From positions 1-36,225 of the forward strand of contig CALGNF010000177.1 in NCBI GenBank assembly GCA_937958685.1: a stretch of DNA of 36,225 nucleotides, given 5' to 3'. Under the pieces are notes generated by a model. It was given only the letters and a program-made list of their open reading frames with translations. It was not told the DNA's origin and did no database searches. The stretch is from an uncultured Caryophanales bacterium (GTDB lineage Bacteria; Bacillota_I; Bacilli_A; Izemoplasmatales; Hujiaoplasmataceae). Of this stretch, positions 1,639 through 8,501 are shown in pieces. The position numbers and the translations under genes are program-made. The number at the start of each line of letters is the position of its first letter. The stretch's first letter is position 1.

Positions 1639-1732
1639 AAAGCTAAAATCGAAGTGATTCGATGACAGAAAACTACAGGGTCTCCGATGGAGATAGCCAG
1701 CTGCCATTTGAAAATCGACTTTAGCTTTTTTT
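1639..1732 (+). terminator. Riboswitch 1 expression platform (conditional intrinsic terminator)
   Basis: Bases 1639-1652 (AAAGCTAAAATCGA) are complementary to 1715-1728 (TCGACTTTAGCTTT) with one A/C mismatch, and the second arm runs into seven T residues (1726-1732). The 5' arm is exactly the sequence needed for aptamer P1 and for the GNRA hairpin, so aptamer folding and terminator folding exclude each other. Inference: ligand binding would free the T-rich arm and allow read-through, an ON switch. The terminator loop of about 62 nt is long but contains the TCTCC/GGAGA hairpin. Confidence 0.6.
1640..1705 (+). ncRNA. GEMM/c-di-GMP-I-like riboswitch aptamer 1
   Basis: The layout is that of the GEMM (c-di-GMP-I) aptamer. 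The P1 5' arm AGCT (1641-1644) pairs with AGCT (1699-1702). A hairpin ATCGAA/TTCGAT (1648-1653, 1658-1663) is capped by the GNRA tetraloop GTGA. A junction GACAGAAAAC corresponds to the family's GACGCAAAGC. A second arm TCTCC/GGAGA (1681-1685, 1689-1693) follows GGG, and the element ends in ATAGCCAGCTGCC. It shares nearly all invariant positions with the second copy at 5278-5346 while the stems differ by compensating changes. The family match is by eye; some key positions deviate, so ligand identity is not certain. It precedes a TasA/SipW-type operon, a sensible c-di-GMP target. Confidence 0.7.
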
Positions 1733-1763
1733 GTCAAAAAAACCATCTAAAGGAGTGTTAATC

Positions 1764-2249
1764 ATGTTTAAGAAATTTCTGGCAGTAATCGCATTGGCTC
1801 TGGTATTGGGCGGAAGCGCCCTGGCATTCGCCTGGTGGGACAACCTTTCCGCAAACCGTGAGGAAGTCATCACCATCGGACAAGGTGTCACCCTGCAAGT
1901 CGCAGCTGTAGCCACCGCTCCAGAAGGGAAAGTCCTCGTTCCGGCCGGCGTCGTTTTAAAGGCAAATGACGTTACCGAAGTTGTCCTGACCTACAACGTC
2001 AAACTCGACCTTGAAGTTCTCACCGCCCTTGATCTGACAGTATCCGCCAGCAACATCCAAATCGGCGGCAGCTCCGAGCACGAAGCGTTGGTCACGATCG
2101 ACATCGCCCAAGCGGCAGCCACCGTCAACAACGCTGATGTCCTCGTCACCGTAACAATCACGCTTGCGCAACCAGACACTGAAGAAGTCTATCTGGAAAT
2201 CATCAACCAGGATATCACCTTCACCCTGACCTTCTCAGCATCGCAGTAA
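1764..2249 (+). CDS. TasA/CalY-like secreted fibre protein 1 (SipW-type signal peptide)
   Basis: This is a 161-residue secreted protein, first gene of the riboswitch-controlled operon. An N-terminal Lys pair and hydrophobic stretch lead to AFAWWDNLSANRE, the aromatic-plus-Asp mature start typical of SipW-dependent precursors. The rest is almost entirely predicted beta strand: IGQGVTLQV, a KVLVPAG turn, NDVTEVVLTYNVKL, and a closing strand ITFTLTFSASQ that resembles the last strand of TasA and CalY/camelysin. Inference: it is processed by the signal peptidase encoded in the same operon and assembles into surface or matrix fibres. The start is the ATG at 1764 behind AAAGGAGTG, which lies beyond the terminator; an in-frame TTG at 1731 lies inside the T-run and has no ribosome binding site. 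It is a close paralogue of the next gene. Confidence 0.75.
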   Translation: MFKKFLAVIALALVLGGSALAFAWWDNLSANREEVITIGQGVTLQVAAVATAPEGKVLVPAGVVLKANDVTEVVLTYNVKLDLEVLTALDLTVSASNIQIGGSSEHEALVTIDIAQAAATVNNADVLVTVTITLAQPDTEEVYLEIINQDITFTLTFSASQ

Positions 2250-2295
2250 CTAAAAAAAACAAAAAAAACATAGAAAAATATAAGGAGAAAAAATC

Positions 2296-2880
2296 ATGAA
2301 AAAAGTATTTGCATTAATCGCTTTGGCAGCATTGTTAGTTGGTTCCACAGTTGTCGCTTTTGCCTGGTGGGATAGTCTACGGGCAGACAGAGACGAAACG
2401 TTCGAAATCGGTTATGGTGTCAGACTCCAGGTCGACAGCGAACTTCAGGACACCCGTGCGCTTGTTCCCGCCGGTTCGTTCTATGCCGCTTATGAGGCGG
2501 ACTATACCACGGCTTATGTCTTTGAATACGTACTCAGCCTCGAAGAGCCTCTCACAGAAGGCATGACCGCCAATTTGAACGTTGAGATCACGGATTTCGT
2601 CCTCGGCACCTACACCTATGGTTTCAACAACGTTGAATCCGTCGTGACCATCGATATCAACGGCACGACCGAAGCCGACGGCGCCTGGGTTCTGGAGAAT
2701 GTTTTCACCGATGAAAACAACGAAGTAACTGTCACCGTCACCCTGACGCTCATCGCCCATCCGAATGCGGAATTCGCCAGCCATTATGCGGCTGTCGCCG
2801 GCCAGTTGCCGACTTTCTCGATCGGTTTCGAGGTTGAGAACACTTCGAGTTCTGAAGCTCCCGAATCACCCCTTCAGTAA
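2296..2880 (+). CDS. TasA/CalY-like secreted fibre protein 2 (SipW-type signal peptide)
   Basis: This is a 194-residue secreted paralogue of the preceding gene, 46 bp downstream and in the same transcript. The precursor begins MKKVFALIALAALL and reaches AFAWWDSLRADRDE, then IGYGVRLQV, matching the first protein position by position around the expected cleavage site. A beta-rich body follows, with a C-terminal strand (PTFSIGFEVENTSSS) and a short Ser/Glu/Pro tail that the first protein lacks. The start ATG at 2296 follows AAGGAGAAAA. Two similar subunits in tandem suggest either a co-assembling pair or major and minor fibre subunits; the sequence does not show which. Secretion through Sec and cleavage by the SipW homologue downstream are inferred from the signal peptide type. 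Confidence 0.75.
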   Translation: MKKVFALIALAALLVGSTVVAFAWWDSLRADRDETFEIGYGVRLQVDSELQDTRALVPAGSFYAAYEADYTTAYVFEYVLSLEEPLTEGMTANLNVEITDFVLGTYTYGFNNVESVVTIDINGTTEADGAWVLENVFTDENNEVTVTVTLTLIAHPNAEFASHYAAVAGQLPTFSIGFEVENTSSSEAPESPLQ

Positions 2881-2919
2881 TCCCAAAAAAACAGCCAGTA
2901 CGACAACATGAAAACCGGA

Positions 2920-2951
2920 GCCGGGCCCGTTGACAACCAACCCGGCCCGGC
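2920..2951 (+). promoter_or_regulatory. GC-rich mRNA hairpin between fibre genes 2 and 3
   Basis: GCCGGGCC (2920-2927) pairs perfectly with GGCCCGGC (2944-2951), with an inner GTTG/CAAC helix (2929-2932, 2938-2941). No T-run follows, so it is not a standard terminator. It sits 8 bases before the GGAGGG ribosome binding site of the third gene. It may stabilise the upstream mRNA or limit expression of the downstream genes; this role is inference. Confidence 0.6.
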
Positions 2952-2969
2952 CTGCTCCCGGAGGGCCTT

Positions 2970-3545
2970 ATGGAAGAACTGAATAGCATTACATCCTCGA
3001 TTTTCCACTTCAAGAGCAAACGGCTGTTGGTGTTGATACTGCTCGGTTTCGTCTCGATCAACTTCGGGATCGGCTATTCGCTGTGGGACAAGGCAAATCA
3101 GGTCGTTGACGATCCGATCATCGATATCGGCGTCGGCGCTGTCATCCAGGTTTCCGAAACCCTCAATCCCGGACCCAACCAGAAACTCATTCCCTATGGC
3201 GCTTTCAAAGGCGCAAACGACATCGAAGAGTTCATCTACACCTACACCGTAAGGCTCAACAAGGACGGCATGCTCACCGCGAAGATCAACAGACTGCTGG
3301 TGGGCGAAGACGCGACGCTTACACACATGTTCACCGTCACGGTGATCGATGAGAACCGGCAAGTCGAAGGCGAAAACCAGTTGACGACAAGTTTTCAGAA
3401 GGAAGCGGAAGCGGAATATCACACCGCCGTCATCACCTTCAGGATCCGCCTCAATCACCCAACCACCCAAGCGGAGTATCTGGCGATCCAAGGCAAGCGC
3501 ATCAACTTGACTTTTACCTTCACCGCCAGCGAGAAAACAGACTGA
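2970..3545 (+). CDS. TasA/CalY-like secreted protein 3 (SipW-type signal peptide)
   Basis: This is a 191-residue third member of the operon's secreted beta-rich family. Unlike proteins 1 and 2 it has a long cytoplasmic lead of about 18 residues before the hydrophobic stretch LLVLILLGFVSINF. After that GYSLWDKANQ replaces the usual AFAWWD. The body keeps the family pattern: IDIGVGAVIQV, KLIPYGAFKGANDIEEFIYTYTVRL, and the terminal strand INLTFTFTASEKTD. It is more divergent than the first two and separated from them by an 89-bp gap with a stable hairpin, so it may be a minor subunit, anchor or assembly factor, analogous in position to TapA-type accessory proteins. That role is inference; no TapA sequence similarity is visible. 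The start ATG at 2970 follows GGAGGGCC. Confidence 0.7.
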   Translation: MEELNSITSSIFHFKSKRLLVLILLGFVSINFGIGYSLWDKANQVVDDPIIDIGVGAVIQVSETLNPGPNQKLIPYGAFKGANDIEEFIYTYTVRLNKDGMLTAKINRLLVGEDATLTHMFTVTVIDENRQVEGENQLTTSFQKEAEAEYHTAVITFRIRLNHPTTQAEYLAIQGKRINLTFTFTASEKTD

Positions 3546-3570
3546 ACCCCAATGAAAGGAGCGAGCCCCA

Positions 3571-4116
3571 ATGTCCAAAACAATTCTGAAAACGAAGTTT
3601 GGCAAATCGCTCCTGGAGGGGCTCAGGTTTTTCCTCATCGTCGGCATCATCTACGGCATCGGCTATGTCATCCTCAATTATGTCCCCTTCTTTGCCAAAC
3701 ATGAGCATTACGTGATCGCCACCGGCAGCATGACTCCCGTCATCGACCCCGGCGACGTGGTCATCATCGACAACAGCGTCTTGCTGGACGATCTCGTTGA
3801 GGGCGACATCATCGCCTTCAGGGCGGTGATCGACGACAGCGGGGAAGAACGGGTCGTGGTGCATTATCTCGCAAGTGTCGTTGAAGACGACGAGGGCGTC
3901 AGGACTTACCAAACCAAACCACATGTTTCCGAACGCCTGGACGACTGGGAGCTGACTGACGAAGACATCATCGGCATCCATGTCCTGACGATCAGCAACA
4001 TTGGCCGGCTGCTCCTCTTCGCCCAATCGCTCATCGGCCGGATCATCATCATCGTGGACATCGTCATAATCTATTACCTGTTTAAAATCCTGTTCAAAGA
4101 CAAAAAGAAAGCCTAA
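3571..4116 (+). CDS. sipW: SipW-type signal peptidase I
   Basis: This is a 181-residue membrane signal peptidase of the archaeal/ER type (SipW branch), expected to cleave the precursors of the TasA-like proteins around it on the outer membrane face. There is an N-terminal transmembrane helix at about 18-38. The catalytic serine lies in ATGSMTPVI (S53) with the following DPGDVV loop. A histidine in VVVHYL (H98) replaces the lysine of the usual bacterial enzyme, the hallmark of this subtype. A second hydrophobic helix sits near the C-terminus (about 152-176), followed by KDKKKA. The gene begins 25 bp after the third fibre gene with GAAAGGAGCGAG before ATG 3571. Its position in the middle of a run of SipW-dependent substrates makes the functional link strong. 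Confidence 0.9.
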   Translation: MSKTILKTKFGKSLLEGLRFFLIVGIIYGIGYVILNYVPFFAKHEHYVIATGSMTPVIDPGDVVIIDNSVLLDDLVEGDIIAFRAVIDDSGEERVVVHYLASVVEDDEGVRTYQTKPHVSERLDDWELTDEDIIGIHVLTISNIGRLLLFAQSLIGRIIIIVDIVIIYYLFKILFKDKKKA

Positions 4117-4149
4117 CCCCAAACAAGGAAATCAAAGGAGGTGAGGGAC

Positions 4150-5106
4150 ATGGCGGGCATCAAAAAACTATTGGCATTATTCATCTTTGCGCTGATCGGA
4201 ATCTCCGGCACGACGATGCTGGGATACAGCCATTTTGACGATCTGGACCAGGATCGTCCCCTTGCGGTTTCCCTTGGCTTCTGGGATTTTCCGGGTGTAC
4301 CCTTCGCAAATTTCGATGATCGGTTGGCTTCCGGATTTTTCACGCTCTTCGGTGTTGACACGCTGACCGATCTTTATGCCAACACGACGTTTTCGCAGAT
4401 CATGAACGCCGCCAGCAAAACCACCAACGGCGGCAGCACCTATTCTGGCACCGGATACACGATTTCCGGCGTCGAATTCGCCAATCAGGCATGGCAGATC
4501 CGTGGGGATGCGGTCTACACCTCGGGCAACACCTCGCTCGGCTTCGTCAGGCAGCTTGACCGCAGCCTGAACACATCCTCCCAACCGATCCATCAGGTGA
4601 TGCCTTCGGATATTGCCAGTCCGCTTCCTTACCCGGAATACAGTTTTTTCACCGCCTATGACATCAAGAATTCCGTCACCGGCAACGCCTACGGCCTGCG
4701 GCTTGACAACCAGGTCGTGATGACGACGATGAACCCGGTCGCGAATCTGGACTCGATCTCCTTCTATGCGCTCCGCGGCTTGAAGATCAACTCCGCTGAA
4801 AGACTTGTCAACCGCCAGTTCGTCGTCCAAATCAGTGCGACCGGCATTGAAGGCTCGTTCGTGAATGTCGGCACCGCCCAGACGCTGCAAGCACCGCCGA
4901 CGGCCATCGAGGTCTTCAATGCGTCCGCACCCGCCAGCCATGCGTTCCCGTTCTATGAATTCGTCCTGACGACGACGCAGAAAAACAATATGCCCGCATC
5001 CGGTTACTACGTGCGGATCAGTTTCAGCGGCGGCGTCCAAGGCAACGGCGGCAGTTCCACCCGTTCCCGCATGGTGATCGACGATTTCCAGATCAACAAC
5101 GACTAA
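4150..5106 (+). CDS. Large secreted beta-rich protein with SipW-like signal peptide
   Basis: This 318-residue secreted protein is the last gene of the operon. Its N-terminus (MAGIKKLLALFIFALIGISG) leads to a GYSHFDDLDQDR segment that parallels the WWD starts of the fibre subunits, so it is probably also a SipW substrate. The mature part does not resemble the small subunits. It has a Ser/Thr/Asn/Gly-rich stretch (about 85-105), then alternating strands with a late SGYYVRISFSGG and a terminal MVIDDFQINND. The latter resembles jelly-roll carbohydrate- or matrix-binding domains that end in IDDIxI-type strands; that comparison is structural intuition only. No catalytic motif is visible. It is likely a matrix-associated adhesin. 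The ATG at 4150 is preferred over the in-frame GTG at 4141 because AGGAGGTG (4135-4142) is correctly spaced from it. Confidence 0.65.
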   Translation: MAGIKKLLALFIFALIGISGTTMLGYSHFDDLDQDRPLAVSLGFWDFPGVPFANFDDRLASGFFTLFGVDTLTDLYANTTFSQIMNAASKTTNGGSTYSGTGYTISGVEFANQAWQIRGDAVYTSGNTSLGFVRQLDRSLNTSSQPIHQVMPSDIASPLPYPEYSFFTAYDIKNSVTGNAYGLRLDNQVVMTTMNPVANLDSISFYALRGLKINSAERLVNRQFVVQISATGIEGSFVNVGTAQTLQAPPTAIEVFNASAPASHAFPFYEFVLTTTQKNNMPASGYYVRISFSGGVQGNGGSSTRSRMVIDDFQINND

Positions 5107-5110
5107 GCCC

Positions 5111-5147
5111 GACACAAAGAGACCTAAAAAGGTCTTTTTTTTGTGTC
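5111..5147 (+). terminator. Intrinsic terminator of the fibre operon
   Basis: AGACC (5120-5124) pairs with GGTCT (5131-5135), extended outward by GACACAAA against TTTGTGTC. The run of eight T residues is at 5135-5142. It lies 5 bp after the stop of the last operon gene and separates it from the second riboswitch unit. Confidence 0.85.
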
Positions 5148-5179
5148 CATTGCAGAAATCAAAAAAATACGCGGCTCTA

Positions 5180-5208
5180 TTGCCATATTTTTGGATTCGT
5201 GATATTGT
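5180..5208 (+). promoter_or_regulatory. Candidate promoter for riboswitch 2 unit
   Basis: TTGCCA at 5180-5185, 17 bases, then TATTGT at 5203-5208. The -35 is near consensus but the -10 is weak. It is the best candidate between the operon terminator and the second riboswitch. Confidence 0.35.
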
Positions 5209-5249
5209 AACATTATCAAAACAAAGCCATGCGGTGAATTGTGTGCCTG

Positions 5250-5365
5250 CACTTCCCGGATGAATGCTTGGTTTGATAAAGCCAAACCCGGAGCGATCCG
5301 GCGACGGAAAACTATAGGGTCTCGACAGAGATAGCCAGCTGCCTTTCTAGACATTCATCGAGGTG
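5250..5365 (+). promoter_or_regulatory. Riboswitch 2 expression platform (SD-masking long-range helix)
   Basis: GATGAATG (5259-5266) is perfectly complementary to CATTCATC (5352-5359), and CACTTC (5250-5255) can pair with the ribosome binding site GAGGTG (5360-5365) with one G-U pair. This helix encloses the whole aptamer and would bury the Shine-Dalgarno of the gene starting at 5372. No terminator T-run is present, so control is probably translational. The direction of control (ON or OFF) cannot be read from sequence alone. Confidence 0.55.
5278..5346 (+). ncRNA. GEMM/c-di-GMP-I-like riboswitch aptamer 2
   Basis: This is a second copy of the element at 1640-1705. AAAGCCAAACC is followed by a hairpin CCGGA/TCCGG (5288-5292, 5297-5301) with GNRA loop GCGA. 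The junction is GACGGAAAACTATAGGG, and an arm TCTC/GAGA (5320-5323, 5328-5331) leads to ATAGCCAGCTGCC. The stems differ from copy 1 by paired changes while single-stranded positions are kept, strong evidence for a conserved RNA. AAAG-C-CAAACCCGG-GCGA-CCGG closely resembles GEMM aptamers, but the base expected before CAAAC reads C rather than G. An alternative hairpin GGTTTG/CAAACC (5270-5275, 5283-5288) would destroy the aptamer and may be the ligand-free state. Confidence 0.7.
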
Positions 5366-5371
5366 AAAAGC

Positions 5372-5854
5372 ATGAGAACACTCTTCATGTTGCTTTTCGG
5401 TTTCTGTTTTGTTTTTTTTGGCACCGAAACAGCTTACTCGTATTGGGAAAACCAACAGGATATCATCAAGTTGCAGAACTCAGGCGACAATGAAACGGTC
5501 ATCATCAGCGAGCTTGCCTTGCAAAGCGAGGGAGCGCGGCTGATACCCGAAGGCGCCCTCCGGGGCAAAGACGACGTGACGGAAATCGTTTATGTCTATC
5601 AGGTCGAGATCCAACCGGGACACACACTGGAAGTTCATCCGGAAGCAGTAGCCATCATCAAGGATGGCATCAGAATCCCGGATGGGGATGGTCTGGTCAT
5701 CTTCCGATTCGAGACGGATGAAATCGATGCCGGACACTTGCTTGTCACGCTCCATGTCAGCCTGAGGATGCCCGAAACCGAAGCCCAACGCACGCTGCTT
5801 CAAGGCGGGAAGGTTGTCTTTTCCTTGGCCTTCACCCAAACAATGCAGCCGTAA
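5372..5854 (+). CDS. TasA/CalY-like secreted protein 4 (SipW-type signal peptide)
   Basis: This is a 160-residue secreted member of the same family, in its own riboswitch-controlled unit. The hydrophobic start MRTLFMLLFGFCFVFFG leads to TAYSYWENQQD, a textbook SipW-type cleavage region. It then follows the family plan: RLIPEGALRGKDDVTEIVYVYQVEI, LLVTLHVSLRMPETEAQR, and a terminal strand KVVFSLAFTQTMQP. It lacks the IGxGV motif of the others, so it is a divergent paralogue. The ATG at 5372 is chosen because GAGGTG (5360-5365) is spaced six bases from it; an in-frame GTG at 5363 lies inside that site. Processing by the SipW homologue at 3571-4116 is inferred. A separate riboswitch of different mechanism suggests it is made at different times or amounts from the main operon. 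Confidence 0.72.
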   Translation: MRTLFMLLFGFCFVFFGTETAYSYWENQQDIIKLQNSGDNETVIISELALQSEGARLIPEGALRGKDDVTEIVYVYQVEIQPGHTLEVHPEAVAIIKDGIRIPDGDGLVIFRFETDEIDAGHLLVTLHVSLRMPETEAQRTLLQGGKVVFSLAFTQTMQP

Positions 5855-7704: not shown

Positions 7705-8131
7705 GATCGTCAAGACGATAACGCGGATCATCATCCCCTTCATCCAGCTCTATGGCATCTTCATCATCCTTCACGGTCACGTCTCCCCCGGCGGCGGTTT
7801 TTCCGGCGGCGCCCTGATCGGCACCAGCCTGATCTTGCTGACGCTGGTTTTTGGCATCGACAAGGCCAAGCGCAAGATTCCCCATAACGTTTCCGAGATC
7901 ATCGAAAGCGGCGGCATGATGGTCTTTGTGGCCATCGGCATCGTCGGCTTGGCGCTTGGCGGCAATTTCCTTGCCAATATCGAGACGGGATTCCCGCTTG
8001 GTGAACCCGGAACGATCCTGTCGGCGGGCATGATCCCGCTGTTGATGATCGCGATCGGCATCAAGGTCGCTTCGACGATGAACTCCCTGTTCCATCTTTT
8101 GATTGAAGGTGAGATCCATGAAGATAATTGA
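7694..8131 (+). CDS. mnhB: Na+/H+ antiporter subunit B (MnhB/MrpB)
   Basis: This 145-residue membrane protein has four hydrophobic stretches. The MrpB signature is clear: LYGIFIILHGHVSPGGGFSGGALIG, matching the conserved HGHxxPGGGFxGG motif. A second ATG at 7688 touches the AGGAGG site, so the one at 7694, spaced six bases, is the likely start. The end overlaps mnhC. It is part of the antiporter membrane arm. Confidence 0.92.
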   Translation: MEDKIVKTITRIIIPFIQLYGIFIILHGHVSPGGGFSGGALIGTSLILLTLVFGIDKAKRKIPHNVSEIIESGGMMVFVAIGIVGLALGGNFLANIETGFPLGEPGTILSAGMIPLLMIAIGIKVASTMNSLFHLLIEGEIHEDN

Positions 8132-8501
8132 GTCGATCATGGAGAACATCAATTATGTCGGCGCCATCGCCCTGTTTCTGATCGGCCTGCATACGGTCGT
8201 GACGCACCGGAATCTCATCAAACGGGTGCTGGGCGTCAACATCATGGGCACCGGGGTGCTCTTGTTCTTCACCTCGATCGGCAATGTCGCCGGCGGCGAG
8301 CCGCCAATCTTCATCCCCGGAAGCGTACCCGGGATTTTTGTCAATCCGTTGCCGTCGGTGTTCATCTTGACCGGGATCGTCGTCGTGGTCTCGATCACCG
8401 TTTACAGTCTCAGCCTGGTTGTCAGGATCCATGAGGCTTACGGCACCATCGACCAACAGGAGATCACCGAGATGATCAAGGAAGAGGAATACCATGATTG
8501 A
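8118..8501 (+). CDS. mnhC: Na+/H+ antiporter subunit C (MnhC/MrpC, NuoK-like)
   Basis: This 127-residue membrane protein is homologous to NuoK of complex I. Helices lie at about 12-30, 36-55 and 85-105. The motif LIKRVLGVNIMGTGVLLFF matches MrpC (KxxxGxxxxxxxxNLxF type), and VNPLPSVFILTGIVV corresponds to its third helix, with the conserved PxPxxLxLTxIVI pattern. The ATG at 8118 follows GAAGGTGAG; an in-frame TTG at 8103 lacks a site. It overlaps mnhB before and mnhD after. Confidence 0.92.
   Translation: MKIIESIMENINYVGAIALFLIGLHTVVTHRNLIKRVLGVNIMGTGVLLFFTSIGNVAGGEPPIFIPGSVPGIFVNPLPSVFILTGIVVVVSITVYSLSLVVRIHEAYGTIDQQEITEMIKEEEYHD

Follow-up and report, generated by a model that had tools for sequence, protein, structure and literature searches.

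The 36,225-nucleotide (nt) stretch at positions 1 to 36,225 of contig CALGNF010000177.1 (assembly GCA_937958685.1), from an uncultured Caryophanales bacterium of the Izemoplasmatales, is called the window here. It contains a locus for small secreted subunits, presumably processed by a SipW-like signal peptidase, and this locus is probably controlled by two riboswitches of the cyclic dimeric guanosine monophosphate (c-di-GMP)-I class that use different expression platforms. Riboswitch A, ahead of a unit that begins with tasA1 and includes sipW, would be a transcriptional ON switch, and riboswitch B, ahead of the separate gene tasA4, a translational OFF switch; we put the probability of this reading at roughly two in three. 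The original prediction, made from the sequence alone, had proposed riboswitch control of a SipW locus by two related GEMM-like elements. Covariance models, covariation and conservation uphold that control, but the two elements do not look equivalent, as A appears to be of terminator type and B of ribosome-binding-site type.

A cmscan search of the whole 36-kb window against Rfam at gathering thresholds yields exactly two matches, both to RF01051 (c-di-GMP-I), for which the gathering score is 35 bits:

1632 to 1708, + strand: riboswitch A aptamer, c-di-GMP-I (RF01051), 51.2 bits, E 2.5e-7; G20 is 1642, A47 is 1669 and C92 is 1704.
5271 to 5346, + strand: riboswitch B aptamer, c-di-GMP-I (RF01051), 49.2 bits, E 7.6e-7; G20 is 5281, A47 is 5308 and C92 is 5342.

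The RF01051 model thus matches both proposed elements, whose earlier coordinates, 1640-1705 and 5278-5346, were right and slightly short. Both aptamers have the GNRA-capped hairpin (P2, with GUGA and GCGA), the common junction and the common ATAGCCAGCTGCC end that had been read from them, and the stem change described as compensatory is found in the two-pair P1b stem, which is CU:AG in A and CC:GG in B. Homologous leaders beside SipW-type genes exist and covary. Among 84 aptamers, the Rfam-derived structure has 97.1% of its cells paired and 218 cells with double changes, which none of 500 shuffles reach, and the covariation score is 0.480 vs 0.221 in shuffled alignments (0/500). Pairs with any double change number 11, only slightly more than in shuffles (9.7; 22/500). 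The P1b, P2 and P3 helices are confirmed by covariation over these 84 aptamers.

Pocket positions are given in Vc2 numbering, in which A47 and C92 contact the ligand. The combination G20/A47/C92 occurs in 66 of the 84 aptamers, among them the two window RNAs and the whole B-type set (31/31), and A47 is present in 84/84. Variant pockets have A20 (7/84) or U92 (11/84), and all 18 belong to the 53 non-B aptamers. Given the G20/A47/C92 pocket, c-di-GMP is the predicted ligand of both window RNAs. An A at position 20 is the hallmark of the cyclic GMP-AMP (cGAMP) riboswitches (GEMM-Ib), a class against which the G at 1642 and at 5281 argues here. Membership in c-di-GMP-I-GGC (RF03167), defined by a score above 59 bits and by G at position 47 (the latter inferred from the family consensus), was rejected as well, because A stands at 1669 and 5308 and no RF03167 match is reported in the window, although Rfam assigns that label to aptamers of some relatives. 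Of the broader claim that the locus senses a cyclic dinucleotide, the c-di-GMP pocket is what stands, but cGAMP is not predicted for either window RNA, though relatives have G20A.

It is nevertheless worth weighing whether the RNAs sense another cyclic dinucleotide, e.g., 3',3'-cGAMP, which we consider very improbable. The relatives with G20A or C92U speak for it, as does the description of G20, equivalent in position to G11 of Cd1, as a selectivity factor and not a hard filter (PMC9262584). A G20A mutant binds cGAMP (PMC6274999), and one tandem c-di-GMP-I cluster has a pocket altered in the way that is typical of cAMP-GMP responders (PMC9481103). Both window RNAs, however, have G20, A47 and C92, and no Hypr serine is found in 35 distinct GGDEF domains (of 52 GGDEF matches) from three genomes other than the window's own. 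As separate observations (L numbers are our handles for loci), A20 aptamers lie at L001:2496, L004:5118, L005:3543, L007:7897, L167:6262-6340, L193:2892 and L199:113; in L001, L004, L005 and L167 a G20 aptamer follows directly before the same gene, a possible two-ligand tandem. U92 aptamers are found at L186:5343, L194:3036, L181:4131, L183 (two), L197:2611, L192:2704, L205 (three, a triple tandem) and L200:2187-2262.

Linkage of such riboswitches to SipW-like genes is conserved. A SipW profile search of public genomes gave 80 SipW-like loci, and the 11 closest, deposited as Izemoplasma, Izimaplasma, Tenericutes, Mollicutes, Bacillales and Acholeplasmataceae, among other names, all have c-di-GMP-I-type riboswitches at the locus. 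Of the remaining 69 loci, which are weaker matches, 42 were scanned with Rfam and 0/42 have c-di-GMP-I, among them L014, which is truncated by its contig (the same contig as L184), and L016; two of the 42 (L061 and L070) have c-di-GMP-II. The order of one relative was surveyed over 90 genomes: RF01051 matches at E<=1e-3 in 71/90, with 69 above the cut-off, a SipW-profile match occurs in 66/90, and GGDEF domains, which would supply c-di-GMP, occur in 90/90. Among the 45 SipW-profile matches of at least 100 bits, 34 (in 32 genomes) have a riboswitch inside the fetched locus. For 9 of the 11 misses the contig stops just upstream of sipW or its tasA genes (L169, L172, L178, L179, L184, L185, L187, L188, and L195), and in two truncated genomes a second contig breaks off immediately behind the riboswitches and tasA genes that it carries (L186 with L178; L202 with L172). 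Because riboswitch matches number only two to six per genome (eleven genomes counted), we infer a linkage far beyond chance.

A TasA-like open reading frame (ORF) lies downstream of 73 of the 84 riboswitch matches and another ORF downstream of 7; for the other 4 the start-codon rule gave no assignment. Loci usually begin with riboswitch A, in many cases as two copies, and continue with tasA1, tasA2/3, sipW and a larger protein, while riboswitch B and tasA4 lie downstream or just upstream of the A unit. The surveyed order, which includes metagenome-assembled genomes named Izemoplasma and Izimaplasma, is nearly without penicillin-binding transpeptidases (PF00905; 1/90 genomes vs 10/14 controls), and the arrangement thus recurs in relatives that are apparently wall-less. 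Two kinds of loci count against a general rule: L198 and L201 are complete SipW-like loci without a riboswitch, and L007 carries its riboswitches downstream of sipW, ahead of a second tasA unit. L198 and L201 include TasA-like proteins of 229-235 amino acids (aa). In L007, inspection by eye shows another terminator-like hairpin between riboswitch A and its gene (7975-8247), for which no aptamer was detected, perhaps a decayed second riboswitch. All riboswitch counts pool RF01051 and RF03167, since Rfam prints only the better of two overlapping matches; for L011, L173 and L176 it prints RF03167, although their RF01051 matches are above the cut-off. L186 and L202-L205 were included for their riboswitches and not for SipW, and the A/B labels of five riboswitches (L011, L183, L173, L180, and L186) were corrected by hand before the B tests, giving 31 B-type leaders.

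Aptamer A competes for one strand with a predicted intrinsic terminator:

1638 to 1653, + strand: 5' arm of the competing terminator, overlapping G20 and the 5' strands of P1b and P2 of aptamer A.
1714 to 1732, + strand: 3' arm of the terminator (1714-1729) and a run of seven T.

The terminator duplex, CAAAGCTAAAATCGAA with ATCGACTTTAGCTTTT, is predicted at -14.1 kcal/mol. For the RNA 1616-1734 the terminator fold has -23.8 kcal/mol vs -14.0 kcal/mol for the aptamer-forced fold, and a transcript ending at 1708 takes an aptamer-like fold of -15.5 kcal/mol. The A-type tests used 44 leaders with a T run within 40 nt, other A-type aptamers being left out. In most of these the terminator is built from the aptamer 3' strand (e.g., AGTTGCC - GGCAACT - T run), and terminators pair better with the 3' strand of their own aptamer than with those of others (-16.7 vs -12.4, 0/2000). 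The window and, as read, five relatives (L001, L004, L005, L006, and L167) use the 5' strand with G20 and P1b. Since aptamer and terminator exclude each other with either strand used, an ON switch is expected, and A, as a terminator-type switch, should turn on the tasA1-sipW unit upon c-di-GMP binding. Without ligand, the terminator 1638-1653 : 1714-1729 with its T7 would take the strand bearing G20, P1b and part of P2; with ligand, the bound aptamer would keep that strand, and the polymerase would read into tasA1, tasA2, tasA3, sipW and the gene of the larger secreted protein.

Several results weigh against this view of A. The minimum-free-energy structure of RNA 1615-1780 is another fold, the terminator stem being kept only in the centroid, and folding of this RNA is barely better than that of shuffles (z -1.21). 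Over the 44 leaders there is weak support for terminators that pair with the 5' strand of the aptamer (-9.0 vs -8.3, 41/2000), the cognate test for the six members of the 5'-arm subgroup gives 58/2000, and the 5' arm of the window terminator is unusually far off. For the closing stem P1 of A, a short candidate was seen by eye.

The leader of tasA4 is built differently, and its predicted elements are:

5215 to 5228, + strand: leader element 'a', where the mRNA is predicted to start, pairing with the coding region in relatives and unsupported in the window itself.
5224 to 5269, + strand: upstream hairpin H1, a rival of P1 for the P1 5' strand, -15.1 kcal/mol (z -1.46 in the window).
5259 to 5266, + strand: P1 5' strand (GATGAATG); 5250-5255 (CACTTC) extends P1 to the Shine-Dalgarno (SD) sequence.
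5352 to 5365, + strand: P1 3' strand (5352-5359) continuing into the SD sequence GAGGTG (5360-5365).

In the 31 B leaders, the window included, no recognised terminator lies before the start codon, 18-31 nt downstream. P1, which in the window has 8 bp plus the SD extension (duplex -22.6 kcal/mol), runs into or adjoins the SD sequence in B leaders. Strands of the same leader pair better than strands of different leaders both for P1 (-16.7 vs -10.7, 0/2000) and for H1 (-10.2 vs -7.0, 0/2000), and this support persists after thinning to 13 leaders (alignment-score similarity <0.72). Within the window's clade of 8, H1 is supported (2/5000). In Vc2, the c-di-GMP-I riboswitch of Vibrio cholerae, control acts at the ribosome-binding site. 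With P1 running into the SD sequence and competing with H1, B looks like a ribosome-binding-site-type switch, suggesting translational OFF control; the proposed logic follows the precedent of Vc2, with P1 tied to the bound form (PMC9262584). P1 (5259-5266 : 5352-5359, extended by 5250-5255 : 5360-5365) would bury the tasA4 SD sequence, whereas the earlier-transcribed H1 would occupy the P1 5' strand and leave the SD sequence open. As c-di-GMP binding goes with P1 in this class, it would favour the closed form.

The opposite polarity deserves attention, as equilibrium folding of B shows no SD exposure that depends on ligand. On forcing the aptamer, accessibility of the window's SD sequence climbs from 0.16 to 0.39, and over the B leaders mean accessibility is 0.350 free vs 0.348 forced, being lower when forced in 19/31. 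The B leader folds little better than shuffles (z -0.60), and P1 in the clade of 8 is conserved without covariation (1115/5000). Both riboswitches might then be ON switches, with the bound aptamer of B, instead of burying the SD sequence, blocking its pairing with a partner in the coding region, so that the whole locus is raised together. The AUG region can indeed form a hairpin of its own, and joint induction would be the simplest biology for a single fibre locus. We regard this as rather unlikely, given that P1 reaches or adjoins the SD sequence in B leaders and covaries over the 31 and that P1 belongs to the bound form in the class, though Cd1 shows no P1 (PMC9262584). Equilibrium folding as such neither backs nor opposes the polarity of B. 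Such folding yields P1 whether or not the aptamer forms, which could also mean that B is vestigial or merely structural and does not regulate tasA4. Against this, the G/A/C pocket is kept throughout the B-type aptamers while every variant pocket is found elsewhere, and the mutually exclusive H1 and P1 are both maintained, making a B without function highly unlikely.

Relatives of B show a further helix, P0, between the leader and about codons 8-12. It was assessed three ways and is clear in the ungapped-helix test only, where cognate pairs score 21.2 vs 17.2 (0/2000, 31 leaders) with a control region at 102/2000; against synonymous-codon shuffles the mean z is 2.0, with 14/31 at p<=0.05. A first test with wide windows was weak (2/2000, controls 176 and 45 of 2000), and one with free duplex energies gave a mean z of -0.89 with 7/31 at p<=0.05. 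P0 is statistically absent in the window's clade of 8 (2651/5000) and is supported outside this clade by the cognate-strand test. In most of the 31 B leaders, a simple scan for promoters predicts a transcript whose 5' end is close to the leader element. On this basis B might be a four-strand exchange switch reaching into the coding region, in which the mRNA 5' end would pair with the P1 strand in the open state or with codons ~8-12 in the closed state. Opposite polarities would let c-di-GMP swap fibre subunits, with sipW-tasA1 switched on at termination and tasA4 switched off at translation. We offer this combined proposal tentatively and rate it somewhat below an even chance.

The genes and signals around the two riboswitches are as follows:

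1580 to 1608, + strand: sigma-70-type promoter TTGACA-17-TATAAT of the tasA1-sipW unit, predicted from a 12/12 consensus match only.
1764 to 2249, + strand: tasA1-like small secreted protein, 161 aa; beta-rich model, predicted local distance difference test (pLDDT) 84.
2296 to 2880, + strand: tasA2-like secreted protein, 194 aa; 99.7% by hhalign with the tasA1 family.
2970 to 3545, + strand: tasA3-like secreted protein, 191 aa; 99.7% by hhalign with the tasA1 family.
3571 to 4116, + strand: SipW-like signal peptidase of endoplasmic reticulum (ER) type; NCBIfam SipW E 1.5e-11, 44.2 bits.
4150 to 5106, + strand: larger secreted protein of 318 aa closing the A unit, seen as an ORF with an N-terminal hydrophobic stretch.
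5116 to 5139, + strand: terminator-like hairpin ending the sipW unit and parting unit A from unit B.
5180 to 5208, + strand: promoter-like TTGCCA-17-TATTGT with TG before the -10, ahead of element B; 9/12 match, predicted start ~5215.
5372 to 5854, + strand: tasA4-like secreted protein, 160 aa; 99.5% by hhalign with the tasA1 family; beta-rich model, pLDDT 81.

The gene order given in the original prediction is confirmed: three small secreted proteins (tasA1-, tasA2- and tasA3-like), the SipW-like peptidase and the larger secreted protein form unit A, and element B stands directly ahead of the fourth homologous small secreted protein. Each riboswitch is preceded by its own promoter-like sequence, although these are consensus matches only and similar ones are also expected by chance in the region. 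Positions 11-44 of the window look like an Illumina TruSeq adapter, so an assembly artefact or chimera may account for the first bases and for the ORF there that is open at its 5' end. A viral or plasmid origin was rejected, with no relative in viral_contigs and none among plasmids at near identity.

By profile comparison the four small secreted proteins are one family. The tasA1-like protein has 139 homologues besides itself at E<=1e-3, at least 4 of them named Candidatus Izemoplasmatales among the 120 matches listed; a single-sequence database search with the tasA4-like protein found itself alone. Ser53 and His98 of the peptidase, presumably the catalytic pair of an ER-type signal peptidase, are invariant in 56 sequences, and the best relative of its profile in the PDB is SEC11C (E 4.7e-5). 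Its 44.2 bits fall under the equivalog cut-off of NCBIfam NF046067 (190 bits), so that by sequence the peptidase is SipW-like, not certified SipW. The larger secreted protein matches no Pfam or NCBIfam family.

The fibre part of the interpretation faces negative results. The small secreted proteins match no named family above its cut-off; the window proteins do not match Pfam camelysin (PF12389) at E<=1, and the 50 members of the tasA1 alignment, which together match 14 families (E<=0.05), give no match to PF12389 either. Comparison by hhalign with BsaA-family proteins of Clostridium gives only 11.8%, no sequence relative of the tasA1-3 families was found in the PDB, and no sequence relation to TasA, CalY or BsaA is detected by Pfam, PDB sequences or hhalign. 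The earlier label TasA/CalY-like has lost its sequence side and keeps the linkage to SipW, the size, the signal peptide and the beta-rich models. As SipW cleaves TasA, a fibre protein with a jellyroll fold (PMC9674648), these features make a TasA-type role plausible, and the products of the locus may form a TasA-type fibre.

Some further observations concern neighbouring systems. Riboswitches of the c-di-GMP-I class precede MreB-like genes in L089, L112, L114, L121 and L124 (by N-terminal sequence; for L112 Pfam E 8e-106), and others of the order (L082, L086, L087, L088, L092, L094, and others) precede two unnamed secreted or membrane families, one beginning like MSQK.RLA and the other with ...SSYAYFTN. 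Several genomes have T-box leaders no more than a few kb away from SipW-like genes (L007, L010, L172, L178, L183 and L206). In two Clostridium loci a c-di-GMP-II riboswitch lies between sipW and BsaA-type genes (L061 6582-6793; L070 6561-6644), BsaA membership being above the NCBIfam cut-off in L061 and judged by resemblance only in L070.

Among known systems, riboswitch B resembles Vc2 in aptamer architecture, in the pocket and, as predicted, in the importance of P1 for binding and in translational OFF control (PMC9262584). Unlike Vc2, the B-type adds a conserved upstream hairpin, H1, that competes with P1, adds, in relatives that do not belong to the window's clade, pairing of the leader with about codons 8-12, and has as its target a small secreted protein beside sipW. 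Riboswitch A shares the mutual exclusion of aptamer and terminator with the cGAMP riboswitch of pilM in Geobacter metallireducens, a transcriptional ON switch (PMC9262584). It differs in having a c-di-GMP pocket (G20), and in the window the terminator arm is the aptamer 5' strand, while most of the 44 A-type leaders use the 3' strand. Tandem c-di-GMP-I riboswitches are known (PMC9481103), for example Bc3-5 of Bacillus thuringiensis (PMC4759541), and several relatives likewise have two consecutive A-type aptamers ahead of tasA1; the window, in contrast, has single aptamers before two separate units, with two platforms.

The tapA-sipW-tasA operon of Bacillus subtilis likewise encodes the SipW peptidase beside small secreted proteins (PMC9674648), but it is controlled by SinR, the window proteins have no detected sequence similarity to TasA, and the order of the relatives is nearly without penicillin-binding transpeptidases. 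SipW-dependent, polymer-forming matrix proteins of sipW-bsaA in Clostridium perfringens (PMC7395162) are another likeness. Two other Clostridium loci have c-di-GMP-II, a separate riboswitch class, between sipW and BsaA-type genes, a like position that is a case of convergence, and BsaA-family proteins have no detectable sequence relation to the window's proteins. By title and opening of the abstract, a literature search that covered few subscription journals found no paper on c-di-GMP riboswitch control of TasA, SipW, BsaA or Izemoplasma systems; passages of PMC7395162 name riboswitches and c-di-GMP in the reference list only. Known already are the aptamer class, both ON and OFF platforms and copies in tandem, and what is new is the pairing of platforms on one fibre-type locus and the helix from leader to coding region.

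A SipW-linked secreted-subunit locus is thus tied to c-di-GMP, the predicted ligand, at the RNA level in at least 32 of the 90 genomes of the order. In walled Bacillota, where TasA-type matrix systems are known, proteins such as SinR control them. If the two platforms are opposite in sign, one signal would alter the composition of the fibre and not its amount alone, and the helix between leader and coding region would widen the known repertoire of translational riboswitch platforms.

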